Shown here one piece after another: positions 2,127-15,160 of a stretch of DNA of 17,141 bases. Made by a program: the position numbers and the translations under genes. Source of the stretch: Dehalococcoidia bacterium (GTDB lineage: Bacteria; Chloroflexota; Dehalococcoidia; JACVQG01); assembly GCA_015661045.1 (NCBI GenBank), contig JACVQG010000020.1, forward strand, positions 1 to 17,141. The letters run 5' to 3'. How positions within the stretch are numbered: the first letter of the stretch is position 1; every line of letters begins with the position of its first letter. The notes beneath the pieces are model-generated. The model had not been told where the DNA came from. It worked only from the letters and a program-made list of their open reading frames with translations, and made no database searches.

Positions 2127-3359
2127 ACGTCTAACGCAACCCGCGGACGCTCCTTCTGGGGGCAGACATTTACCTCTCTCAACTACAGAAACTTCCGCTT
2201 CGTCTGGCTGGGATCGGTCTCGGAACACATGGGTGAGTGGATGGAGATGGCGGCCCTGCTGTGGCTGGTCAACGAGATGACCAACTCCCCGTTTACGGTT
2301 ACCCTGGTCAATTTTGCCCGTATGGGGCCGATGATTATTTTCTCATTTCTGGGCGGGCTGGTGGTTGACCGGATGAACCGTAGAAATGTGCTTATCATGG
2401 CCCTTTTGGCTTCGACCCTGCTTTCCCTTGTCTTATTTGTGCTGGTGCATACCGGCACGGTTGCCATATGGAACATTCTGTTAATAAGTGTCCTGGGTGG
2501 AGTAGCCACCAGCTTCAACCATCCGGCCCGCCAGACAATGGTGCCCAATCTGGTTAAGCGAGAACACCTGATGAATGCCATCTCACTGGACACCACATCG
2601 GTGATGGCAAGCCGTGTTATAGCAACGCCTATTGCGGGGATACTTATTCAGTTGTTCGGGGTTACGCCTGTCTTCGGACTCCGGGCGGCTGGTGCAGGCG
2701 CAGCCATTATCTGGTTGCTATTTATTCCCGCGATGTTACCGCCTGAAAATACCCAAAAGCGGAACCCATTACAAGATTTAAAACAGGGGTTTAGCTATTT
2801 ACGACAGCAACCACTCATACTTGGCCAGGTGCTGTTCTGGGGATTGCCTTCGTTAGCCCACGCCGCCTTCAACGGGCTATTGCCAGCTTTTTCCAAGGAC
2901 GTTTTAAAGGTTGGCCCATTCGGGTATGGAGTGCTTCAGGCTGCGACCGGTCTAGGCTCTATAACCAGTCTGCTTACTTTAGCGACCAAAGGACAGGTGC
3001 GCAGGCGGGGACTGATTATGCTGGCATCCGGAATGGGTATGGGAGTGGCTTTTCTGGGGTTTGCCTATTCTCCCTGGTTCATATCTTCTGTTTTTCTGGC
3101 TATTGCGATAGGGGCCATGAATACGTCCTTAACTACGGTGAATAATACGATAATCCAGGAGCTTATATCGGACCAGATGCGTGGGCGGGTGATGAGTTTG
3201 CGGGAAGTTATGACCGGACTTGGTCCGGCGATGAGCCTGATGGTGGGAAGCGCGGCTGAAATTGCCGGCTTGACTGTGGCAACAGCCGGCCTGGGCGCCG
3301 TGGTGCTGGCCATTCCTTTGGCTTTGTGGCTTCTGCCCACGCGGATGAAAAAGATATGA
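2127..3359 (+). CDS. MFS transporter, MFS_3/EntS-like exporter (paralogue 1), apparent ACG start
   Basis: A 12-helix-type major facilitator. The first ATG, GTG or TTG in frame is ATG 2229, which would remove the conserved N-terminus. The upstream frame encodes FWGQTFTSLNYRNFRFVW, matching FWKQTFASLGYRDFRLVW of the next gene, and runs back to ACG 2127, correctly placed behind AGAAGGAGG. From ACG the protein is 410 residues, the same as paralogue 2. The inter-helix motif A is GLVVDRMNRRN (about residues 77-87), and GRVMSLREV lies late in the protein. It is probably a proton-driven inner-membrane exporter of a small molecule; the substrate is unknown. It begins one base after the preceding stop and is followed 22 bases later by a paralogue. 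If ACG is not used, ATG 2229 gives 376 residues lacking most of helix 1. Confidence 0.85.
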   Translation, partial: TSNATRGRSFWGQTFTSLNYRNFRFVWLGSVSEHMGEWMEMAALLWLVNEMTNSPFTVTLVNFARMGPMIIFSFLGGLVVDRMNRRNVLIMALLASTLLSLVLFVLVHTGTVAIWNILLISVLGGVATSFNHPARQTMVPNLVKREHLMNAISLDTTSVMASRVIATPIAGILIQLFGVTPVFGLRAAGAGAAIIWLLFIPAMLPPENTQKRNPLQDLKQGFSYLRQQPLILGQVLFWGLPSLAHAAFNGLLPAFSKDVLKVGPFGYGVLQAATGLGSITSLLTLATKGQVRRRGLIMLASGMGMGVAFLGFAYSPWFISSVFLAIAIGAMNTSLTTVNNTIIQELISDQMRGRVMSLREVMTGLGPAMSLMVGSAAEIAGLTVATAGLGAVVLAIPLALWLLPTRMKKI

Positions 3360-3381
3360 CAACCCAGAGGTCATACCTTTA

Positions 3382-4614
3382 ATGAACATATTTGGCAGCA
3401 GTGCATTTTGGAAGCAAACCTTCGCCTCGCTGGGCTACCGGGACTTTCGCCTGGTATGGTCGGCCTCTATGATTTATCACCTGGGCGAGTGGATGGAGAT
3501 GGCGGGGCTGCTCTGGTTTGTTCAACACCTGACCGGCTCGCCATTTTTAACCTCTCTTATACTTTTCCTGCGCATTTTCCCTATGATAATCCTGTCTATT
3601 CCTTCCGGGCTTATCGCCGATAGAATGAGCCGGCGCAACCTTATGATTATGAGCCAGTCTGGCACTGCAGTCCTATCTATTGCCCTGGCAGTCCTGGCAG
3701 ATACCGGATTGGTGGAATACTGGCATCTTGCGGTATTATCCGTGCTGGGTAGTTTTGCCAGCGCCGTCAATATGCCGGCCCGCCAGTCGGTTCTGCCCAA
3801 CCTGGTGCGGCGGGAACACCTGATGAATGCCATCTCTCTCGACCAGGCATCTATGATGTCCAGCCGTCTCATTGGCGCTCCACTGGCCGGTTTTCTGCTG
3901 GCGACTACTGGAGTTACGTATATCTTCGGAATCAGAGCTTTAGGGGCTGCCATATCCGCATTGCTGCTCATAAGGATGCCGCGATTCGACCCGGTGCGAA
4001 CTGGAAGTAAGACATCGCCGATGCAGGATATACGGAGCGGGTGGGGATATTTCCAGAAGGAACCCATGATACTAGCCCTGGTAGCTATGTTTGCTCTCCC
4101 GATGCTCTCTAATCAGTCCTATCTGGGGCTGCTGCCGGTTTTTTCGACCCAGGTGCTGGGTGTAGGAGCTATGGGGTATGGGTTCTTACAGATGGCGCCG
4201 GGTGTTGGGTCTGCTTTGAGCCTGGTAATCTTTGCCGGCCTGAGCAATATGCGGAGAAGGGGACTCTTTCTATTTACTTCTACAACAATCATGGGGCTGG
4301 CATTATTAATATTCTCTGTTTCCCGCTCGTACACTGTGTCAGTAGTCATGCTCATGGTCAACGGGGCTATGAATACTGCTTTTATGACTGTAAATGCCAC
4401 GTTGATTCAGGAGCTTATTCCGGATGAGGTGAGGGGGCGGGTATGGGGGTGGCGTAATGTGTTCCGTGGTCTGAGCCCTATGGGCAGCCTGATGGCGGGT
4501 AGTATTGCTGATTTATATGGACCGCCGTCGGGCGCCGCTTCGGTAGGGTTTCTGATGGTGGGTAGCTCTATTATCATGCTTCTGCTATTACCTAAAGTAC
4601 GGAAGTTGAATTAA
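3382..4614 (+). CDS. MFS transporter, MFS_3/EntS-like exporter (paralogue 2)
   Basis: A 410-residue membrane protein with an ATG start 22 bases after paralogue 1 and a weak AGAGG upstream. It has the N-terminal FWKQTFASLGYRDFRLVW signature, GEWMEMAGLLW in helix 1, motif A GLIADRMSRRN at 76-86, and the second-half motif GRVWGWRNVFRG. The general architecture is the MFS_3 group (enterobactin-exporter-like). It is very close to paralogue 3 and more distant from paralogue 1, so the triplet arose by tandem duplication. The role is presumed export across the cytoplasmic membrane; nothing in the sequence identifies the substrate. It probably shares a transcript with paralogue 1 and the two genes before it. 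Confidence 0.92.
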   Translation: MNIFGSSAFWKQTFASLGYRDFRLVWSASMIYHLGEWMEMAGLLWFVQHLTGSPFLTSLILFLRIFPMIILSIPSGLIADRMSRRNLMIMSQSGTAVLSIALAVLADTGLVEYWHLAVLSVLGSFASAVNMPARQSVLPNLVRREHLMNAISLDQASMMSSRLIGAPLAGFLLATTGVTYIFGIRALGAAISALLLIRMPRFDPVRTGSKTSPMQDIRSGWGYFQKEPMILALVAMFALPMLSNQSYLGLLPVFSTQVLGVGAMGYGFLQMAPGVGSALSLVIFAGLSNMRRRGLFLFTSTTIMGLALLIFSVSRSYTVSVVMLMVNGAMNTAFMTVNATLIQELIPDEVRGRVWGWRNVFRGLSPMGSLMAGSIADLYGPPSGAASVGFLMVGSSIIMLLLLPKVRKLN

Positions 4615-4784
4615 TACCCTCGGTATATCAACGATTAGCATCTCCGGTAACCCGGTTTCACTAACTCTCCTGATGTGAGCAGGTTGGTCCCGACATGACG
4701 GGATGCACTACTCAAGAAACCGTTTTCAGGATGGTTATTTTATAACACTGCTCAATAAGCACAAATTGATGTAAAATACTATGC
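4615..4784 (+). other. 170-base gap between MFS paralogues 2 and 3
   Basis: No gene is seen here. A short hairpin, TCCCG-acatga-CGGGA, lies near 4688-4703, and the last 50 bases are AT-rich. TAAAAT (4772-4777) sits 7 bases before ATG 4785, and there is no Shine-Dalgarno sequence, so transcription starting close to the ATG (a leaderless message) is possible. No convincing -35 box goes with it. Confidence 0.25.
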
Positions 4785-6023
4785 ATGTCTTTAATGACGA
4801 GGTTAACGGCTTCCTATAAGCAGACATTTGTCTCGCTAAGCTACCGGGACTTTCGCCTGGTATGGTCGGCCTCCATGATACATCACCTCGGTGAGTGGAT
4901 GGAAATGGCGGGGCTGCTCTGGTTTGTCCAGGAGATGACGGGATCTACGTTTCTTACCTCGCTTATGTTTTTCTTGCGAGTGGTGCCCATGGTGGTACTT
5001 TCTATTCCGGCAGGGCTAATAGCCGACCGGATGAGCCGCCGCAACCTTATGATTTATAGCAAAGGGGGTACAGCCCTTCTCTCCGTGGCGCTGGCTGTGC
5101 TCACGCTTACTGGTTGGGTTGAGTACTGGCATTTAGTTGTAATTTCGGTTCTGGGCAGTGCTGCAACCAGTATCAATATGCCCTCTCGACAGGCAGTAAT
5201 CCCTAATATAGTAAAGCGGGAACACCTGATGAACGCCATATCTCTGGATAGTTCATCCATGATGTCCAGCCGTCTTATAGGGGCTCCCCTGGCGGGACTT
5301 TTGCTGGCGCATACAGGTGTGACCTACGTGTTTGGACTACGAGCTGTTAGTGGATTAATAGCCGCTGCTTTGCTTATTAAAATACCCCGTTTCGATCCGG
5401 TACGGAATGGGCCGAAGTCTTCGCCGGTGGAAGACCTGAAAATGGGGTGGCAGTATCTCAAGCGGGAGAGCCTGGTCTTTGCATTGGTGGGTTTGTTTTT
5501 TCTGCCGATGTTTTCCAATTTGTCATATATGGGATTACTACCAGCCTTTGCCACTCAGGTATTGCAAGCGGGGGCCTGGGAATACGGGCTACTCCAGATG
5601 GCGCCTGGAGTAGGTTCAGCCCTGAGCCTGGTGTCCCTGGCTGCGGTAAACCAGATGCGCCATAAAGGCTATTTCCTGTTTTCATCGGCTATTGTAATGG
5701 GCGTGGCTATGATCATCTTTGCCTATTCCCGCTGGCTTCCCCTATCAATGGCGATGCTCATGCTGGTAGGTGGGATGAACAACGCCTTCATGACTGTAGA
5801 CTCCACTCTTGTCCAGGGAATGATCCCCGATGATATGCGGGGGCGCGTGATGGGGTGGCGGGAAATGGTCCGGGGTTTCAGTCCAATGGGTAGCTTGATG
5901 GCGGGTGTGATTGCCGATACCGCTGGCGGCCCGCCTATGGGAGCAGCCGTTGTGGGCGCTGTCACTATGGCTATACCTTTAGTACTGATTTTTCTTATGC
6001 CCCGTATGCGACGGCTGGATTAA
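4785..6023 (+). CDS. MFS transporter, MFS_3/EntS-like exporter (paralogue 3)
   Basis: A 412-residue protein closely similar to paralogue 2 throughout: YKQTFVSLSYRDFRLVWSAS, GEWMEMAGLLWFVQ, motif A GLIADRMSRRN at about 77-87, and GRVMGWREMVRGFSPMGSL near the C-terminus. It is a typical full-length MFS_3 exporter; the substrate is unknown. It is separated from paralogue 2 by 170 bases, so unlike the first two it may have its own promoter. ATG 4785 has no visible Shine-Dalgarno sequence. ATG 4794, three codons on, is an alternative start. Confidence 0.92.
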   Translation: MSLMTRLTASYKQTFVSLSYRDFRLVWSASMIHHLGEWMEMAGLLWFVQEMTGSTFLTSLMFFLRVVPMVVLSIPAGLIADRMSRRNLMIYSKGGTALLSVALAVLTLTGWVEYWHLVVISVLGSAATSINMPSRQAVIPNIVKREHLMNAISLDSSSMMSSRLIGAPLAGLLLAHTGVTYVFGLRAVSGLIAAALLIKIPRFDPVRNGPKSSPVEDLKMGWQYLKRESLVFALVGLFFLPMFSNLSYMGLLPAFATQVLQAGAWEYGLLQMAPGVGSALSLVSLAAVNQMRHKGYFLFSSAIVMGVAMIIFAYSRWLPLSMAMLMLVGGMNNAFMTVDSTLVQGMIPDDMRGRVMGWREMVRGFSPMGSLMAGVIADTAGGPPMGAAVVGAVTMAIPLVLIFLMPRMRRLD

Positions 6024-6061
6024 ATCCGCATTTACATCGAAAAGAAGACTGTCCAGGCGTG

Positions 6062-6090
6062 TTGACAGACGCAGGTAGACACGTTAACAT
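6062..6090 (+). promoter_or_regulatory. Sigma-70-type promoter for the solute-binding-protein genes
   Basis: TTGACA (6062-6067), a 17-base spacer and TAACAT (6085-6090). The start of transcription would be near 6097, giving a leader of about 135 bases before ATG 6234. The -35 box is perfect; the -10 matches at the key T, A and final T positions. Confidence 0.6.
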
Positions 6091-6233
6091 TTGCCTTACA
6101 CGGAAACACCGGGTCCTGTAAAAGCAATGACTGGTGTGCGAGGAGCCAAGACCTGGATTTATGTTGAAGTAAAAAGTTCAAATCCCGGGGGGCGTAAAAT
6201 TTATTGTCGGTATTAAGGAGGGAAAGGCAACAC

Positions 6234-7379
6234 ATGAAAAAGAGAATTCCGGGTCTTATGACACTTATCCTGGTAACGCTGGTGCTGGCGGCATGTTCTC
6301 CCGGGGCGGTCCCTGTCGCGACCCCAATGTCCACCCCAACCCTGGCGCCTCAGTCGGCTCCGGCTGCATCAGCGCTTAATCCGGAAGATGTTGCCTGGGC
6401 TAAGGTAGTGGCGGCAGCTAAAAAAGAGGGGGAGGTAAACGTCTATGCCTATAGCTGGCTGGGTGATATAGGGATAGCTATCGCCAATGGGTTCAAACAA
6501 AAATATGGTATATCTGTAAAAATAACCACGGGACGAGGGGCAGAGATCGCAGAGAGATTGAAAACCGAGAAGCGCATAGGTCAGCGAGTTGGCGATATGA
6601 CTGAGGGTAGCTCTATACTTATAGGTAGTATGAAAGTGGAAGGACTGCTGGCTTCAGTGACTGATGAACTTCCAACCCTTAAGGAGAAAGGGGTATGGAT
6701 GGTACTTCCCTCAGAAATAGATCCCAAAGACAAAATGAATCTGGCTTTCCGGCTTATCGCTTACACGCCCTATATCAACACCAAGCTGGTAAAGCTCGAG
6801 GAGAAGCCCGGATCATGGAAAGACTTGTTGGACCCTAAGTGGAAAGGGAAAATGCTCATGACGGAACCAAATTTGGCTCCCAACTTTTATGAAACCATGG
6901 TTGTGTTCCTGGAGAACAAAATATGGGATGAAAATTATATCAAGGCCCTCTACGGACAGAACCTTCAAATCGCAACCGGAATGCCAGAGTTGTTCACCAG
7001 GCTCGCTCAAGGAGAGTTTCCATTAGCCCTGCAGGGAACCGATGTAACCGGAGCACGTTTCGCCATGGAGGGCGCACCCTTTCAAGCTATAGATATGAAG
7101 GAGGGGATTGTCCTTTCAACCGCCTCAGTGGCGGCCATAGCCGGAGGTCCCAACCCGAATGCCACACGCCTTTTTCTCAACTGGGTATATAGCCAGGAAG
7201 GGCTAAGTCTGGCTGGAAAAGCCCTGGGAAATAAGATGGTCCGCAAGGATATCCCTGACTTCCGTCCCAAAGGAGTGCAGACGGATATTGTGAAGCCGGT
7301 AGTGGGAAAGCCGGAGCAGCTAGAAAAGTCCACCCAACTTTTTCGGGAAAAGTGGTTTGATAAGCTCGTCGGAAGATAG
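6234..7379 (+). CDS. Solute-binding lipoprotein, COG1840 (iron/AfuA-like) family, copy 1
   Basis: An upstream in-frame TTG at 6204 exists, but ATG 6234 is preferred: AAGGAGGG and AAAGG lie just upstream, and it gives a clean lipoprotein signal peptide (MKKR, hydrophobic core, LAAC with Cys21). The mature protein begins with a Pro/Thr/Ala-rich linker, then AKVVAAAKKEGEVNVYAYSW, typical of the first strand of COG1840 periplasmic-binding proteins, and later PNPNATRLFLNWVYSQEG, the family's C-terminal signature. Total 381 residues. It is expected to be anchored outside the cytoplasmic membrane and to deliver a ligand to an ABC importer. The family often binds ferric iron, but I cannot identify iron ligands here. 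No permease or ATPase gene is in the window. A second, diverged copy follows 67 bases later. Confidence 0.9.
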   Translation: MKKRIPGLMTLILVTLVLAACSPGAVPVATPMSTPTLAPQSAPAASALNPEDVAWAKVVAAAKKEGEVNVYAYSWLGDIGIAIANGFKQKYGISVKITTGRGAEIAERLKTEKRIGQRVGDMTEGSSILIGSMKVEGLLASVTDELPTLKEKGVWMVLPSEIDPKDKMNLAFRLIAYTPYINTKLVKLEEKPGSWKDLLDPKWKGKMLMTEPNLAPNFYETMVVFLENKIWDENYIKALYGQNLQIATGMPELFTRLAQGEFPLALQGTDVTGARFAMEGAPFQAIDMKEGIVLSTASVAAIAGGPNPNATRLFLNWVYSQEGLSLAGKALGNKMVRKDIPDFRPKGVQTDIVKPVVGKPEQLEKSTQLFREKWFDKLVGR

Positions 7380-7383
7380 AGAC

Positions 7384-7404
7384 AGATAGAGAATTGAGAC
7401 AGAG
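7384..7404 (+). repeat. 21-base spacer repeat, copy 1
   Basis: An exact 21-base match to 9265-9285, rich in GAGA and GACAGAG. It begins 4 bases after the stop of solute-binding copy 1. Looser relatives (GAGATAGAGAG, GAGACAGAGATAGAGAGG) follow the stop of copy 2 at about 8590-8620. It looks like duplicated gene-flanking sequence. Confidence 0.7.
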
Positions 7405-7446
7405 ACATGGATTCAAGACGATTCAGGAAAGGGAACACGACAGCAT

Positions 7447-8586
7447 ATGATAAAGAGAATTCTTGGCCTTATAACAATAGTTATGGTAACAATGGCGCTG
7501 GTAACATGTGCTCCTGCTGCGGCCCCTGTAGCGACTCCATCGGCCATTCCTACCTCCAACTTCCCACCCCCCACTTCTCAAACCGCCACTCAAGATGCTG
7601 CATGGGCTAAGGTAGTGGCGGCAGCCAAAAAAGAGGGTAAATTAACAGCATACAGTTTTAACTGGGTGGGGGATGTTGGTCTGACGGTTCAAAAAGCATT
7701 TGAAAGCAGATATGGCATAAAACTTGATATTATCACCGGGAGGGGATCCGAGTTCATCGAAAGGATAAAGACTGAAAGGCGGGTGCAACAACAGGTTGGC
7801 GATTTCACGGAGGGCAGCCCGTTACACATCCAGAGTATGAAGTTGAATGGGTCGCTGGCTTCTATCGTCAGCGAATTGCCTGTTATAAAGGAACAGGGTG
7901 TATGGCTGGCAGAGCCAACGGTCATCGACACGCAAGATAAAGTTAATCTGGTATGGCGGTTCGAGGTTTTAAGCCCTTATATGAACACCAAATTGGTCAA
8001 ACCGGAGGACGCGCCCGGTTCATGGAAAGATTTGCTGGACCCAAAATGGGTAGGGAAGATGAGCATCGGAGATCCCAACATTCAGTCTACTTTCAGTCGA
8101 GTAGCAGTAGTGTTTATGGAAAATGGAGTGTGGAACGAGGACTATGTTAAGGCGCTGTATAAACAGAAACCAGGCTTTACTACAGGCGGAGCTGACGATT
8201 TTAGCAGACTGTCCAGAGGCGAAGTGTCTTTGGTTATTTGCGGCGCTGAGGCTACTGCGGCGAAGTTCATTGTAGAAGGGGCGCCCATTCAGCCCATAGA
8301 TATGCGGGATGGGGTGGTATTCTCCACTGGTTCTATGGCTGCCATTGCAGGAAGCCCGAATCCCAATGCTACAAAGGTCTTTATAAACTGGGTGTTGAGT
8401 CAGGAGGGGCAGACTGTTACCTCTAAGGCTCAAAGTATAAAGGTATTGCGTAAAGATGTAGCTGACTTCCGCGCCAAAGGGGCTCAGGTGCAGTACACCA
8501 GACCCCTCGTAGAGTCTATTCAGCATCTGGAAAAGTCAACAAGGATGTTCCAGGAAAAATGGTTTGACAAACTCGTCGGAAGATAG
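7447..8586 (+). CDS. Solute-binding lipoprotein, COG1840 family, copy 2
   Basis: A 379-residue paralogue of the preceding gene. It has a signal peptide with LVTC (Cys21), an Ala/Pro/Thr linker, AKVVAAAKKEGKLTAYSFNW, the shared YMNTKLVKPEDAPGSWKDLL region, and PNPNATKVFINWVLSQEG. Both proteins end in EKWFDKLVGR. ATG 7447 has AGGAAAGGG about 10 bases upstream. The two copies have diverged most in the middle of the protein, which could mean different ligands, but the conserved hinge and C-terminus indicate the same fold. It is probably co-transcribed with copy 1 from the promoter at 6062-6090. A GAGA-rich hairpin follows the stop. Confidence 0.9.
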   Translation: MIKRILGLITIVMVTMALVTCAPAAAPVATPSAIPTSNFPPPTSQTATQDAAWAKVVAAAKKEGKLTAYSFNWVGDVGLTVQKAFESRYGIKLDIITGRGSEFIERIKTERRVQQQVGDFTEGSPLHIQSMKLNGSLASIVSELPVIKEQGVWLAEPTVIDTQDKVNLVWRFEVLSPYMNTKLVKPEDAPGSWKDLLDPKWVGKMSIGDPNIQSTFSRVAVVFMENGVWNEDYVKALYKQKPGFTTGGADDFSRLSRGEVSLVICGAEATAAKFIVEGAPIQPIDMRDGVVFSTGSMAAIAGSPNPNATKVFINWVLSQEGQTVTSKAQSIKVLRKDVADFRAKGAQVQYTRPLVESIQHLEKSTRMFQEKWFDKLVGR

Positions 8587-9659: not shown

Positions 9660-9688
9660 TTGACAGCTCAAAAGATATGCGCTATATT
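9660..9688 (+). promoter_or_regulatory. Near-consensus sigma-70 promoter of the five-gene ATPase/helicase operon
   Basis: TTGACA (9660-9665), exactly 17 bases, then TATATT (9683-9688). Transcription would start near 9695. The region around it is clearly more AT-rich than the flanking genes. This is the best promoter in the window. Confidence 0.75.
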
Positions 9689-9745
9689 TTCAACGAACTT
9701 TCTATATCCCTGAAAAAATATTCCAAACATGACTGCCTATTTAAC

Positions 9746-9751
9746 AGGAGG
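9746..9751 (+). promoter_or_regulatory. Shine-Dalgarno sequence deciding the start of the first operon gene
   Basis: AGGAGG lies 4 bases before GTG 9756. The alternative ATG 9729, nine codons upstream, has no Shine-Dalgarno sequence, so GTG 9756 is preferred. Confidence 0.55.
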
Positions 9752-9755
9752 ACAC

Positions 9756-10565
9756 GTGGAAGAAAACCAGAGACCTACGCTGGAAAAGGCATTGGCGAAA
9801 ACCGAGGAAGATGCCAATGCCAGTCTCAAGGCAGCACAAGCCGTTGTTACTGTATTGAGAAGGTTCCATAAGGCCGCCACGTTGGGGAATCTCCGGGATT
9901 TGCATAATGCAATAGAAGCAGCGGAAAAGGCCGAGTTAGGGCTGCGGCAGCAGATTGCCACCTCCAAAGCTGGGTGGGACTTCAACGAAGAAGCATACCT
10001 GGGGGATGGCTCGTTTACAAGGGAGATCCTGGATATTGCCAGACAAAAAGGGGTAGGTATCTTTGAAAGGGACGATAGGCTTTATTGCTACCCTGTACTT
10101 ATTCGAGTTTCGGCCAGTGAGCGCGCCGTTCTGATAGACAAGGTCAGGGAGAAGAGGCTACGGCCTGCCGTTCTGGTCGATCACCTGAAGGAATTACAGA
10201 AGAGGCCGCCCCGCTTTAGTCCGGGGGTTTTCTTGGAAGCCCTTTACGAGGCTTATGGTATGGCTGTGAAGTCAAGGGCCAAAGACCTTGTATCTGTTTC
10301 TGGAACAGTGATTCCACTGCTGGAAATCTACGACTTATTTACACTTCTGCCTGGGCAGTCCAGGGAATATCAGAGGCAAGAATTCGCCAGGGACGTCTAT
10401 CTCCTTGACCGCAGCGGAGTTGCGGCCACTAAGAACGGCGCTAATGTGAGTTTTCCTGCCAGTACTGGCACTAAAGCGCTGAGCCGTACCCTCAGCGTTA
10501 TCAATGAGCATGGGGAGGAAAAGAGGTATTACGGGATAGCTTTTTTGGCGCCCGGTAAGGAGTAG
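9756..10565 (+). CDS. Helical protein of unknown family, first gene of the ATPase/helicase operon
   Basis: I do not recognise this 269-residue protein. The first 75 residues are charged and helical, with a heptad-like look (EKALAKTEEDANASLKAAQAVV, then AIEAAEKAELGLRQQI), suggesting a coiled coil or helical bundle. A central part, SFTREILDIARQKGVGIFERDDRLYCYPVLIRV, reads like a winged-helix segment ending in a beta hairpin. The C-terminal third (YQRQEFARDVYLLDRSGV, then KALSRTLSVINEHGEEKRYYGIAFL) is mixed. No signal peptide or catalytic motif is visible. GTG 9756 is chosen over ATG 9729 because of AGGAGG. The gene ends 5 bases before the next start and carries that gene's Shine-Dalgarno sequence. 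A DNA-binding or scaffold role is only a guess from position. Confidence 0.8.
   Translation: MEENQRPTLEKALAKTEEDANASLKAAQAVVTVLRRFHKAATLGNLRDLHNAIEAAEKAELGLRQQIATSKAGWDFNEEAYLGDGSFTREILDIARQKGVGIFERDDRLYCYPVLIRVSASERAVLIDKVREKRLRPAVLVDHLKELQKRPPRFSPGVFLEALYEAYGMAVKSRAKDLVSVSGTVIPLLEIYDLFTLLPGQSREYQRQEFARDVYLLDRSGVAATKNGANVSFPASTGTKALSRTLSVINEHGEEKRYYGIAFLAPGKE
10557..10562 (+). promoter_or_regulatory. Shine-Dalgarno sequence placing the true start of the frameshifted P-loop-like gene
   Basis: AAGGAG at the end of the preceding gene lies 8 bases before GTG 10571. The long downstream frame has no ribosome-binding site at its first possible start (GTG 10710), so translation most likely begins at 10571 in a different frame. 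Confidence 0.7.
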
Positions 10566-10570
10566 CACAC

Positions 10571-11519
10571 GTGCCTGCCTATTTGAAACCACAGGAATGG
10601 CTCTCAGTGTTGCGAACGGAGTACTTGCAGAGCTTCATTCTTTGAGACCGTAGAGATAAAAACTGGACTCCAGAAGCTAGCCGGAGAAAGTGGCTTCCTT
10701 TTTGCTTCCGTGGATGCCTCGGCCACGAAAATTCATCTGATCGAGCATATCTTTTTTCAGGTAGCCCGGCAGGTGGACTGGGAGGGTCTGGCCTATTCCT
10801 TCCTGTGCCGCTCTTTGGAAGGACACTACAAGTTGCCCGATAATCGGGAACAGTTCAACCTTAAGAACCTAGCCTTAATTAACGAGTATGACGAGCCGGA
10901 AATGCGCAGAGTCATCAATGAGCGACTGAAGAAGGCGTTGTACCAGGACTACGCTATGACGCAGGAGTTCAGGCTTGCCATGGTCAGATTATGCCAGGCC
11001 CAGCTTGACCCAGCAGAAGTTAGCGCGGAGCTTTGCGACACGGTAAAAAGCTGGTTGCGGGGCGAATTGCGCCGCATGTCTGCCCTGAAACCAGCTTTAA
11101 TATTCCAGAGGATTGGCCGGCACAATGCCCGACACTTGCTATTTTCGCTATCCCACTGGCTGAGAATCAGCGGCCATAACGGTCTGGTCCTCGTACTGGA
11201 TATCTCACGATATCTGCAGGAACGTCCCAAAGGGCACGTTGAGACTCTATACTACAGTAAGCCTATGGTGTTGGATTGCTATGAAGTGCTCAGGCAGTTT
11301 ATTGACGAGACCGATGAAGCGGAATTCCTCTTTACCGTCGTCTTAGCTCCTACACGATTCCTGAATGAGGATGAGAGGCGAAGCGTCCACTGGTATCAAG
11401 CATTGAAACTTAGAATCTGGAATGAGGTACACGACAGGGTACACGCTAATCCCTTGTCCCCTTTGGTGCGCGTTTCGTCATGCTCCCATACAGAGACGGA
11501 CAGGGGGCAGGGCTTATGA
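10571..11519 (+). CDS. P-loop-like subunit lacking Walker motifs, needs a +1 frame change near codon 24
   Basis: Translation from GTG 10571 gives PAYLKPQEWLSVLRTEYLQSFIL and then TGA (10643-10645). The rest of the protein is in the +1 frame, from GAG 10644 (ETVEIKTGLQKLAGESGF) to 11519, for 315 residues in total. The downstream frame is open back to 10587 but has no start before GTG 10710. The fusion matches my recollection of BrxC/BrxD-like N-termini (WL..L..EYL..FI...VK). The body aligns loosely with the next gene: a Walker A loop is absent between VEIKT and FASVDA, and the Walker B position reads LVLDIS (Asp210) with no glutamate. It is therefore probably a non-hydrolysing partner of the next ATPase. 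Whether the CTT-TGA site is recoded, mutated or an error is open. Confidence 0.75.
11502..11507 (+). promoter_or_regulatory. Shine-Dalgarno sequence deciding the ATPase start
   Basis: AGGGGG lies 8 bases before ATG 11516, which overlaps the previous stop as ATGA. The longer in-frame choice, ATG 11480, has no such site. Confidence 0.6.
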
Positions 11520-12571
11520 ACGCCGATATAAATACTCAGAGCCGCCGTGCCATAGAAGCCCTGCGAGCGGGAGTACCTAACCAGGATGCCGTTAGGGCGC
11601 TAGGCAGTTCACAGCCAGACCTGGAGAAGAGATTTAAGCAGCAATTACAAGCGGCCAAGGAGGGCTTCTCCGAGGGAAAACAAGCGGTGGGGATGCTGGT
11701 TACCGGTGGGTTTGGCTCAGGGAAGTCTCACCTGCTGGAACATTTCGAGCATGTCGCACTGGAGGAGAATTTTGTCTGTAGTAAGGTCGTCATCAGCAAA
11801 GAGACGCCGCTGTATGAACCGGCCAAGGTCTTCCGGTCGGCCATGCAGGATTGCCGTATTCCAGGGAAAAGGGGGACCGCTTTATCCGAGATAGCCAGCA
11901 GTCTCAAGTTCGATAGCCTTCTTTTCAGTGAATTCGAAAGGTGGGTGAACCAACCCGATGTGCCGCTCAGCTCGTGGTTTGCCGCCACGCTTTACCTGTA
12001 CCGCCATGAAAAACACGATGAAGAAATAAGAGACCGCATTATCCGTTTCTGGTCTGGCGACCCAATTGGCGTAGCTGAGCTTAAAAAATGGCTCAGGGAA
12101 ATAAATGAGGCAGCTTCTTATAAGATAGATAGGATATCCGTAAAAGAACTGGCGTTGCAGCGGTATTCTTTTGCACCACGGTTGATGGTGGCCGCCGGAT
12201 ACTCTGGTTGGGTTTTACTGATTGATGAGGTAGAGCTAATAGGCAGTTATTCTCTACGGCAGCGGGCCCGCTCCTACGCCGAATTAAGTAGATTCATGGG
12301 AAAGCTGGAAGGAGTCAGCGCGCCCGGCATGAGTTGTGTTTTGACCATAACCGATGATTTCCAGACTCGAGTCCTGGAAGAACGCAATGATGAGGAAAAG
12401 ATACCGGGCAAGTTGAGGGCAGGCGGCTCAGAACCTGACCTATTGTTGGCCAGCCAGGCTGAGCGGGGAATGCAACTAATACGCACCGGCAAAGTCCTGC
12501 TTGAGCCGCCAAACCCCGAAGTGATTAAGCAAACATACGAAAAGCTACGCAGCCTGTATGCCTCTGCTTAA
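11516..12571 (+). CDS. BrxC/BrxD-like (DUF2791) P-loop ATPase, C-terminus in another frame
   Basis: 351 residues to the stop at 12571. ATG 11516 overlaps the previous stop (ATGA) and begins at the family N-terminus, SRRAIEALRAGVPNQDAVRALG. Walker A is GGFGSGKS (64-71) and Walker B is VLLIDEVE (Asp237, Glu238), so the ATPase core is intact. The family comprises ATP-binding subunits of BREX and, from memory, of Shango-type anti-phage systems. The frame stops after EKLRSLYASA, but the expected family C-terminus (MRQHVKRWITEWDLKRLYPDY) follows in another frame. Adding one base at the TT of 12568-12569 would join them into about 411 residues. It is therefore truncated as read: a mutation, a sequence error, or two separately made pieces. 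The upstream partner is a motif-less relative. Confidence 0.85.
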   Translation: MNADINTQSRRAIEALRAGVPNQDAVRALGSSQPDLEKRFKQQLQAAKEGFSEGKQAVGMLVTGGFGSGKSHLLEHFEHVALEENFVCSKVVISKETPLYEPAKVFRSAMQDCRIPGKRGTALSEIASSLKFDSLLFSEFERWVNQPDVPLSSWFAATLYLYRHEKHDEEIRDRIIRFWSGDPIGVAELKKWLREINEAASYKIDRISVKELALQRYSFAPRLMVAAGYSGWVLLIDEVELIGSYSLRQRARSYAELSRFMGKLEGVSAPGMSCVLTITDDFQTRVLEERNDEEKIPGKLRAGGSEPDLLLASQAERGMQLIRTGKVLLEPPNPEVIKQTYEKLRSLYASA

Positions 12572-12750
12572 CATCCACAGTTATGCGCCAGCATGTAAAA
12601 AGATGGATAACAGAGTGGGACTTGAAGCGGCTCTACCCCGACTACAAACCCGATATGGAAGTAAAGGAACTCAGTCAAAGTTATGGGGAAAACCCAGACT
12701 TAGAAGCGCCGAGCGAAGATTCTCCCGAAAAAAACGAGCCCCGAGAGTAA
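12572..12750 (+). pseudogene. Frame-shifted C-terminal piece of the DUF2791-like ATPase
   Basis: In the frame of ATG 12583 this reads MRQHVKRWITEWDLKRLYPD followed by an acidic tail ending EKNEPRE and TAA at 12748-12750 (55 residues from the ATG). I recognise this as the usual C-terminal segment of the DUF2791-type ATPases, where it directly follows the part that ends the previous frame. No Shine-Dalgarno sequence precedes ATG 12583, so independent translation is unlikely. An overlapping frame at 12558-12764 is a shadow. Confidence 0.7.
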
Positions 12751-12768
12751 TCGGTCAGAAATAAATTT

Positions 12769-13308
12769 ATGCCAATTCCTTTTCGCGATGCCACAGAGCT
12801 TGAAGAACTTGGTGCGGCAGCCTACCTGAAAATAGAGGAGCAGCCGGCAGGTTACATGGGCGCTCTATTCTTAGTCAATGCCCGCAGCGAGCCTCTGGAG
12901 TTCACTTACACTCGTATAGAAACGCCTAATACCTTCCTGTGGCGTCCTGCTGATGTACGACGCCACGCCACCCGGAAACTTACCGCCTCGCTGCTATCCC
13001 TTTGCCCCCAGGCGCCGCGGCTGTTGCTGTGTCTGGCCGAGGAGGTGGATAGCGAATTGTTTTGCCATGACATACGGGTATCTATCCCCGTCTGCCGAAT
13101 TGCCCCTAAGCTAGCGGTGGTCCCATGTACCGGACAGGAGGCCAGAGATGAGGCGGAAGCTGATGAACCCCTGCATCTCTTCTGGTTTCCCGACAGGCCT
13201 ACTGAAGGTTCGGTAGAGCAGAGGCTAATTCATCAACTTTCTGAATATAAATTACTGCTGGAGCCATTTAACAGAGCGGCAGCAGGCATCCGCGAAGTTT
13301 ATAAGTAG
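12769..13308 (+). CDS. Small protein of unknown family between ATPase and helicase
   Basis: A 179-residue soluble protein with no recognisable motif. It looks like a compact alpha/beta fold: GYMGALFLVNARSEPLEFTY reads as beta strands, and FLWRPADVRRHATRKLTASL as a helix with several arginines. An acidic stretch (EARDEAEADEP) precedes HLFWFPDRP, and the C-terminus is helical. ATG 12769 lies 18 bases after the end of the ATPase C-terminal piece and has no clear Shine-Dalgarno sequence, so translational coupling is likely. It ends 7 bases before the preferred helicase start. Its fixed place between two nucleotide-driven enzymes suggests a dedicated adaptor or recognition subunit, but this is inferred from context only. 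Confidence 0.8.
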   Translation: MPIPFRDATELEELGAAAYLKIEEQPAGYMGALFLVNARSEPLEFTYTRIETPNTFLWRPADVRRHATRKLTASLLSLCPQAPRLLLCLAEEVDSELFCHDIRVSIPVCRIAPKLAVVPCTGQEARDEAEADEPLHLFWFPDRPTEGSVEQRLIHQLSEYKLLLEPFNRAAAGIREVYK

Positions 13309-13315
13309 GTTGGTA

Positions 13316-15160
13316 ATGGAGAATTGGTGGAAGGCTAGGGATGAGGTGAGGGAGCCTCGGGCGCGCTGGCTAGGGTTTTTCTCCCGCAAGCTACCCCTAT
13401 TAGAACACGGACCAAAGCGGCTGACCGTTCCACTTTTAAGGGTACTGACAGGCCAATCGGTAACTGGTGGTAGTTCCAGCCTGACCGCAGTCAATATCTG
13501 TGCAGCCATGGTGCAACATGAAACCAGTAGCCTTTTTGCCCCTGGTCGCACCAAAGAACCAGGGCGGGGTACGGTTTGCCTGGCCGAAGTTTTGTTAAAT
13601 GAAAAAACGCCGGTTTCGCCTGCTACGCCAGCCACGGTAGAAGATCAGATTTGGGAGAAACTAAAACTTAAAGGCTCCGAGCCACAGATTCCCTTAGCCA
13701 AACGACTGGCTTACCTGCTTCAGCCGCCCAGGGAATCTCTCCTTTCATCTGAAGGACCTTTGCAATGGCCCGCAACCTTTTTCCCCTACCAGGTAGAAGG
13801 CATCGAATCACTAATTTCCGGGGAAGCCCTGTTGCTGGCAGACGATATGGGATTAGGCAAAACTATACAGGCCATTGCTGCCATCCGTATCTTAATCCAT
13901 CGGCACCAAATAGAAAGTGCCCTGGTTGTTGTCCCAGCAGGCCTAATTACTCAATGGAGAAAAGAGTTGCGCTCCTGGGCGCCGGAGTTGCGGATTTCTA
14001 CAGTACAAGGACCTGTTGGCGAAAGGGCCTACCAGTGGTCGTCGCCTGCCCACGTTTACTTGACCAGCTACGAAACACTGCGAGGGGATTTCACTGCTAA
14101 CCCGCAGTCACCGCCTCGGCGGAAAATCTGGGACGTGGTTATTCTTGACGAAGCTCAGAAGATAAAGAACCGCGATACAGAGGTCAGTCGCAAGTGCAAG
14201 CTTGTTCCACGGTTCCGGGCATGGGTCTTAACCGGGACGCCTCTCGAAAACACTTCTGACGACCTGGCCTCAATCCTGGAGTTTACCCGGCCTTTAGGTC
14301 AGGAAGAGAAACCCCCGCGACTAACACCAGGGCCTGCAATGCTGGAAATTCATAGAAGGCTACAATTGCGGCGAAAAAAGGCCGATGTCCTGCCACAATT
14401 GCCCCCCAAGACAATCTCCGCTATTGCCTTGCCTTTGTCAGGAGAACAACGTTATACCTACGATAAGGCTGAAAAAGAAGGGATCTTGCAACTAAAGGAA
14501 AAAGGTCAGTCTGTACGCATCGAAAATGTCCTGGAGCTTATTTTAAGGCTCAAACAAATCTGCAATTTTTGCCCCCGGACGGGCCAGTCAACAAAGCTAG
14601 AAGATATCCAGAATCGCCTCACAACTCTTGTATCAGAGGGCCACCGCGCGCTTATCTTTTCCCAATTCACCGATGTTAGATTTGGCGTCCAGGCGATTGC
14701 CAGCAAACTTGGGACATTTCACCCCATGCTTTTTACAGGCGACATTTCTCTGCAACAAAGAAGCGTCATTATTGAGAGATTCAAGTCAGATCCTGGCTAT
14801 AAGGTGCTGGTGCTCTCATTACGCGCCGGGGGACAGGGTCTAAATCTTCAGGAAGCATCGTATGTATTTCATTTTGACCGCTGGTGGAACCCGGCTGTAG
14901 AGCATCAGGCCGAGGACCGTACACACCGCCTGGGGCAAACATCCCCTGTCCATATTTACAAATATACCTGTGAAGATACAATTGAAGATAGGATTGAACA
15001 AATCATCCAGGAAAAGCAGAAGCTCTTTGACGAGCTTGTAGACGATGTATCTATAGATTTGAAATCTCGCCTGACTGCGGGCGAGTTATTTGGGCTTTTC
15101 GGATTGACGCCGCCATCCAGCTTAACCAATCCAGAACGAGATCAGAATCAGCTACATTAA
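13316..15160 (+). CDS. SNF2-family (SWI2/SNF2) DNA helicase/translocase
   Basis: 614 residues from ATG 13316; TTG 13310 is a possible start two codons earlier. All SNF2 motifs are visible: FPYQVEG (156-162), motif I ADDMGLGKT (GLGKT 179-183), Ia VVPAGLITQW, motif II DEAQ (278-281), III LTGTPLEN, IV ALIFSQF, V LSLRAGGQGLNLQEA and VI QAEDRTHRLGQ (531-541). The enzyme should be an ATP-driven duplex-DNA translocase. The first 150 residues match nothing I know and may be the system-specific domain. The core resembles the SNF2 subunits of DISARM (DrmD) and stand-alone bacterial RapA/HepA-like proteins. It is the last gene of the operon and appears fully intact, unlike the two ATPase-type genes before it. 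Confidence 0.93.
   Translation: MENWWKARDEVREPRARWLGFFSRKLPLLEHGPKRLTVPLLRVLTGQSVTGGSSSLTAVNICAAMVQHETSSLFAPGRTKEPGRGTVCLAEVLLNEKTPVSPATPATVEDQIWEKLKLKGSEPQIPLAKRLAYLLQPPRESLLSSEGPLQWPATFFPYQVEGIESLISGEALLLADDMGLGKTIQAIAAIRILIHRHQIESALVVVPAGLITQWRKELRSWAPELRISTVQGPVGERAYQWSSPAHVYLTSYETLRGDFTANPQSPPRRKIWDVVILDEAQKIKNRDTEVSRKCKLVPRFRAWVLTGTPLENTSDDLASILEFTRPLGQEEKPPRLTPGPAMLEIHRRLQLRRKKADVLPQLPPKTISAIALPLSGEQRYTYDKAEKEGILQLKEKGQSVRIENVLELILRLKQICNFCPRTGQSTKLEDIQNRLTTLVSEGHRALIFSQFTDVRFGVQAIASKLGTFHPMLFTGDISLQQRSVIIERFKSDPGYKVLVLSLRAGGQGLNLQEASYVFHFDRWWNPAVEHQAEDRTHRLGQTSPVHIYKYTCEDTIEDRIEQIIQEKQKLFDELVDDVSIDLKSRLTAGELFGLFGLTPPSSLTNPERDQNQLH

Follow-up and report, generated by a model that had tools for sequence, protein, structure and literature searches.

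A window of 17,141 nucleotides from a Dehalococcoidia bacterium (the whole stretch analysed: positions 1 to 17,141 of contig JACVQG010000020.1, assembly GCA_015661045.1) contains, at 9756-15160 on the forward strand, five genes, here called A through E, that form a real, conserved and unnamed five-gene DNA-motor system. B and C are ATPases of one family, E is an SNF2-family protein, and A and D match no named family. The order of the genes and their protein families recur across phyla, E is found fused to an Mrr nuclease domain and to D, carriage of the operon is patchy, and similarity between copies from different phyla runs at the DNA level over the entire operon. We give slightly better than an even chance to the view that this is a mobile accessory system acting on DNA, most likely in a restriction-like form of defence, in which case its role would be anti-phage.

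The genes recur in a fixed order. A pattern scan of 84,980 genomes yielded 65 stretches, 59 of which encode a relative; because two peptide patterns were used, these counts are lower bounds. The relatives come from Chloroflexota, Thermodesulfobacteriota, Myxococcota, Nitrospirota, Bacillota, Armatimonadota, Actinomycetota and others. Together with the window, 58 of these 59 and 14 of 20 further stretches (the other six being duplicates) make up the 73 loci compared here, in which genes were called as longest open frames, a procedure that misplaces some starts where the DNA is GC-rich. In 70 loci the sequence leaves 600 bp of room behind A, and B comes next in 68 of them; one of the two misses, L094, is a 62-residue partial match to A, and the other, L046, results from such a wrong start. 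C follows B in all 64 loci that have 600 bp of room or a visible C. Behind C, 51 loci offer 1.5 kb of room, and 46 of these have a helicase gene of the SF2 type on the same strand (adding five shorter stretches with a visible helicase makes it 51 of 56). This helicase is E in 39 loci and a ResIII/DEAD-type enzyme in 12 actinobacterial loci (PADLOC best match PbeA in the two tested), and its type needs at least one change on a quick tree of A (40 rows). Of the 39 loci with E, 31 also have D. B and C are fused in two loci and D and E in three, and the median gaps A-B, B-C, C-D and D-E are 3, -4, 19 and -4 bp, respectively. An earlier sequence-only reading of the window, made by a model without database searches, had looked to conserved order in unrelated genomes for support, and its recurrence across the 73 loci indicates that the operon is more than a chance arrangement.

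Some copies show additional features. Five actinobacterial loci carry an extra gene of 540-730 aa before A (L039:8373-9989, L044:2225-4345, L045:1393-3258, L047:7780-9978 and L048:8049-9950); among three tested, two match sigma-70 region 4 weakly, one of these also matches the RNA polymerase alpha-CTD weakly, and none matches a PADLOC family. In L022 (3-9024), two operon copies lie about 3 kb apart on one contig, the end of one (C-D-E) preceding the start of the next (A-B-C), and a further operon-bearing stretch, L032, comes from the same assembly.

Within the window, open frames occur on one strand in the order A-B-C-D-E at 9729/9756-10565, 10710-11519, 11480-12571, 12769-13308 and 13310-15160, in agreement with the five closely spaced genes of the sequence-only reading. 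The near-consensus promoter proposed in front of them is present as TTGACA-17-TATATT at 9660-9688 (+), with 11 of 12 consensus matches. Such sites are no commoner in the window than in shuffled sequences (15 versus a mean of 16.5), and this one alone therefore proves little.

The two ATPases belong to a single family. B (10571-11519, +) and C (11519-12571, +) both match PF10923, the BrxC/BrxD P-loop family, with E values of 2.8e-11 (43.4 bits) and 2.5e-22 (79.8 bits) against a Pfam cut-off of 22.2. B had initially been described as a Walker-less P-loop-like protein, distinct from the BrxC/BrxD-like ATPase C; the missing Walker A motif is confirmed, whereas the separation from C is not, and an arrangement of one BrxC/D ATPase behind an unrelated protein is rejected. 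C contains a Walker A motif (GGFGSGKS) and a Walker B motif (LLIDEVE). Inspection of the family consensus and of the B-C alignment shows a conserved GGAAVKF in B, apparently at the Walker A place, and a Walker B-like strand, with no GxxxxGK[ST]; B is a degenerate AAA+ paralogue. The profiles of B and C resemble each other weakly (hhalign E 0.0015, probability 17%, compared without the two B-C-fused rows). Against the NCBIfam BrxD model NF033438, C scores 60.2 bits and B 32.9 bits, both far under the cut-off of 350 and both somewhat lowered by the disruption of the window genes described below. PADLOC places C closer to BrxD (2.6e-16) than to SngB (1.6e-8), each as a partial match, and also returns weak matches to BrxC. 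At least 3641 of 7999 candidates scored are homologues of C, and searching PDB sequences with the L002 versions of B and C found nothing.

E (13310-15160, +; 616 aa) has SNF2 and Helicase_C domains. Both the SNF2 helicase and the BrxC/BrxD ATPase named in the first reading are confirmed by Pfam. That reading also found no nuclease motif. This holds for the window, where Pfam detects no Mrr catalytic domain in E, and not for the family, as Mrr_cat forms the end of E in 14 of the 39 E loci (PF04471 at 2.7e-24 in L007). Two further E genes are truncated at contig ends, and the domain is missing from 23, counting L020, in which a frame split leaves the Mrr part of E in the other piece. On a quick tree of A with 29 scored rows, on which L020 and, by the E of its neighbouring copy, L022 were scored as Mrr-bearing by hand, the presence of Mrr changes at least seven times, as expected of an exchangeable effector. 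In L095, a small open reading frame (ORF) with a partial Mrr_cat match (4823-5032, - strand; 2.3e-6) follows an Mrr-less E and is likely a nuclease remnant. The best PADLOC match of E is ZorD, and neither SngC nor PglZ is among the best 25 of 46 families; NCBIfam gives 176 of 1500 bits for ZorD and 89 of 610 bits for DrmD, both far under cut-off.

Proteins A and D had been labelled unknown, and neither has a Pfam match up to E 1 in the window. A (9756-10565, +; 269 aa) most likely starts, as proposed, at the GTG at 9756 behind AGGAGG. It has 898 homologues at E 1e-3. Its model consists of a long helical hairpin and an alpha/beta part (predicted local distance difference test score 92.4), for which fold searches gave no match at E 0.001, the VIA matches falling mainly at residues 2-86; the order of helices and strands in the model suggests that the C-terminus may resemble a winged helix. 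The wider family of A has no Pfam name either: across 85 members, five Pfam families were each hit by a single protein, at E 0.006-0.01. A PDB sequence search returned only weak matches, to coiled-coil, designed-helix and similar proteins.

D (12769-13308, +; 179 aa) is an RNase H-like fold protein with 479 homologues and no sequence family. None of 53 D proteins matched a Pfam family at E 0.01, endonuclease V (PF04493) included, and a PDB sequence search found none. In a fold search, the predicted model of D resembles endonuclease V, Argonaute-PIWI and UvrC, and D is accordingly predicted to adopt an endonuclease V fold. Membership in that family by sequence is rejected, since hhalign against 16 endonuclease V proteins (16 of 24 loci were tried) gave a probability of 0.1%. 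D is shorter than endonuclease V, the Argonaute PIWI domain and the UvrC C-terminal domain; it differs from endonuclease V in having no detectable sequence similarity, and the first catalytic Asp is apparently absent.

The window copy itself is doubtful as a working unit, and as assembled it would encode neither B nor C in full. Comparison with the relative L002 reveals a 44-bp gap in B at about 10640 and a 43-bp gap in C at about 12570. The start of B lies in another frame, with some 24 codons at 10571-10642 before the change to the main ORF (10710-11519). The frame of C breaks at about 12570, and its last ~55 residues are found out of frame at 12583-12750 (+), where they match positions 365-409 of the C model and correspond to the residues that end P0241, a protein from another assembly. 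Given this break and the displaced end, a 68-aa ORF at 12558-12764 is most likely not a gene. The usual sizes in relatives are about 330 aa for B (uninterrupted, for example, in L002:10795-11787) and about 420 aa for C. That the window copy is a decaying pseudo-operon or a product of assembly errors is an even bet; either case is compatible with every reading of the system considered below and would leave this copy uninformative about a working five-gene system in the strain. Both gaps are out of frame, and the same assembly (67% complete, 373 contigs) also has its endonuclease V gene (G000:C195:948-1495) split between two frames, which suggests frame errors in it. On the other side, A, D and E have open frames and are conserved, and P0241 is an intact 425-aa C that is 99% identical over the whole query and holds 15 residues at the site of the gap. 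A strain-specific lesion and an assembly error are both possible.

The distribution of the operon is patchy. A is carried by 24 of 393 genomes of the class, the window's own included, and by 16 of 220 good ones; D is carried by 9 of 400 genomes of the phylum, again including its own. With phyla taken as annotated in the records, the operon DNA of L006 (labelled Deltaproteobacteria) and L007 (Nitrospirota) is 83.5% identical over L006:9989-16051, that is, from 12 bp before A (start 10001) to 3 bp past the stop of E (16048). L006 and L010 are 81.1% identical, and the other cross-phylum pairs above the 76% cut-off for reporting, among 12 chosen operons, share 76.0-80.0% identity over ~5.5-5.9 kb. 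The flanks are unlike at each end in alignments of four loci. On the quick tree of A, rows from Nitrospirota, Bacillota, Myxococcota and Thermodesulfobacteriota fall within one 20-row clade, and phylum changes 12 times where the minimum is 7. The cassette apparently moves horizontally between phyla as one piece. A survey of tRNA genes at 52 loci revealed no common integration site.

In a restriction-like defence system built from these parts, A and the degenerate ATPase B would join the active ORC/Cdc6-like ATPase C in a scaffold. The A-B-C complex may engage foreign DNA with the aid of the endonuclease V-like D, which would read DNA or bases, and may then load the SNF2 motor E. E would track along the DNA and, when it bears Mrr, cut it; an Mrr-less E, as in the window, could strip or block DNA or rely on another nuclease. 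Support for defence comes from the transferability of the operon, its list of parts and the Mrr module. A more specific construction, to which we attach a low likelihood, is a methylase-free restriction of a new build, in which the ORC/Cdc6-like pair (one active, one dead) and the adaptor A would load SNF2 or SNF2-Mrr onto invading DNA, while a catalytically altered, endonuclease V-like D would mark the target by reading non-canonical bases or DNA structure.

Several observations weigh against a defensive role. At 1e-15, 127 neighbours of 18 loci match three PADLOC families (five proteins at most), versus 43 families for 127 control genes of the same class, several of the 43 apparently being matches of one protein. 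Since a single protein can hit many families and the control matches come without a count of proteins, we take this as no enrichment rather than depletion. The neighbours are a draw of 150 of 178, less 23 dropped by eye (mostly spurious-looking frames in GC-rich DNA); the controls are 150 of 157 genes from 15 stretches, less 23 dropped partly as spurious-looking and partly to equalise numbers (seven of the eight L144 genes among them). The expectation of other defence genes nearby is thus not borne out, a defence island as setting is rejected, and the neighbourhood gives no support for defence. Further, 23 of 39 E genes are without a nuclease, and five loci with room (L057, L060, L096, L097 and L102) have A-B-C with no same-strand helicase behind C, although L102 has a helicase of the ResIII/DEAD type in front of A on the opposite strand. 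Single cases of cross-phylum similarity could be binning errors, and the searches made of IMG/VR, PLSDB and INPHARED found no operon copy, with none of 13 pattern matches on viral contigs confirmed.

The genes around the operon, where inspected by eye, look mostly like ordinary metabolic ones. In the window, the toxin-antitoxin genes reported upstream are present as a ParE/RelE-type toxin gene, its small partner and a DUF433 gene. Farther upstream, the stretch 2229-8586 holds three consecutive, similar MFS-like membrane transport genes and, behind them at 6204-8586, a similar pair of lipoprotein substrate-binding-like genes, by eye and in both cases apparent local duplications. Elsewhere, SocA/Panacea adjoins L089 and L095; in L059 (3410-4745), a PIN gene (Pfam) and other genes of toxin-antitoxin type (by eye) lie between C and D; and the B-C-fused copy in L036 (1123-7202) has integrase-like and toxin-antitoxin-like genes (by eye) within 9 kb and an AbiEii gene about 7 kb off.

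An accessory function in DNA repair or genome maintenance, in which the ORC/Cdc6-like pair would bring an SNF2 remodeller to damaged bases or stalled forks and the endonuclease V-like D would sense lesions, is conceivable, though we think it unlikely. Carriage of A by just 24 of the 393 genomes in the class, DNA similarity along the whole operon between phyla and repeated gain or loss of a restriction-type nuclease all speak against such a function, even if the endonuclease V- and UvrC-like fold of the D model, the metabolic-looking neighbours without defence enrichment, and the assignment of BrxD, the nearest named relative of B and C, to the ORC/Cdc6-type AAA+ ATPases (PMC12839542) would suit it. 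A special case of the defence reading, modification-dependent (type IV-like) restriction, in which D or A-B-C would recognise modified or deaminated phage bases and SNF2-Mrr would cut with no need of a methylase, accords with the absence of methyltransferase matches from the operon and, in PADLOC at 1e-15, from the 127 neighbours, and with the Mrr_cat on E, the endonuclease V-like fold of D and the D-E fusions in three loci, but it is improbable. Against it, D has no Asp at the place of the first catalytic Asp of endonuclease V (by inspection) and no similarity to that enzyme by profile comparison, and Mrr-less members would be left with no cutter.

Restriction-like defence remains the reading we favour. 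Whatever its exact role, a fixed-order cassette found across phyla, with two proteins (A and D) that neither Pfam names nor PADLOC 2023 matches, makes a strong candidate for a system not yet described. The operon matches no named system in PADLOC, NCBIfam or Pfam, as had been supposed, and among open-licence PMC papers no system was recognised as this operon.

Membership in BREX, Shango, DISARM or Zorya is rejected on tests for their components. The first reading had noted the lack of a methylase, PglZ and TerB, and the following searches bear this out. Apart from the weak BrxC matches of C, no PglZ, PglX or BrxC was detected above thresholds in the operon or the 127 neighbours. By PADLOC, PglZ is matched by none of A-D, is not among the best 25 families for E and is not found in the neighbours; PglZ PF08665 occurs in 3 of 16 genomes that carry the operon, always on a different contig from it. 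The methyltransferase PglX/BrxX has no Pfam match in the operon and no PADLOC match at 1e-15 in the neighbours, and TerB has no Pfam match in 85 A or 53 D proteins at E 0.01. Neither A-D nor the neighbours match DrmA, DrmB, DrmC or the methylase of DISARM, or ZorA or ZorB of type I Zorya, and no Dpd match was found among the neighbours. ZorD of type I Zorya, DpdE of Dpd and SCO1167-type SNF2 proteins share the SNF2 core with E, and ZorD, in its PADLOC description, joins SNF2 to an Mrr-like nuclease. E matches mainly the helicase core in these much longer proteins, and in E the Mrr domain, if present, is C-terminal.

The closest parallels are with two systems that pair an ATPase with a helicase. 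As described in PMC10250203, Shango comprises TerB, the ATPase SngB and the DEAD/DEAH helicase SngC and protects against phages. Like Shango, the present operon is compact and sets a BrxD/SngB-type ATPase beside an SF2 helicase and a further small protein; unlike it, the operon has two ATPases, one of them degenerate, and SNF2 E instead of SngC, and it adds the RNase H-like D and, in 14 of 39 E loci, the Mrr nuclease. In type 2 BREX, according to PMC12839542, the ORC/Cdc6-type BrxD is tightly linked to the SF2 helicase BrxHI, which is Ski2-like, and helicase loading has been proposed. The tight linkage of a BrxC/BrxD-family ATPase to an SF2 helicase is common to both, whereas the helicase is Ski2-like in the one and SNF2 in the other. 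The genome of the window also encodes, on another contig, a BrxD-like ATPase followed by a BrxHI/SngC-like helicase (L155, G000:C354:8000-15947, at 4386-7669 on the - strand; PADLOC 7e-94 and 5e-76); this contig ends close upstream, so that any TerB gene there would lie beyond its end. By analogy, the five-gene operon plausibly works like type 2 BREX and Shango while being a member of neither, and a small system of this kind, with no methylase or PglZ, would make the role of BrxD-type ATPases in BREX and Shango testable.

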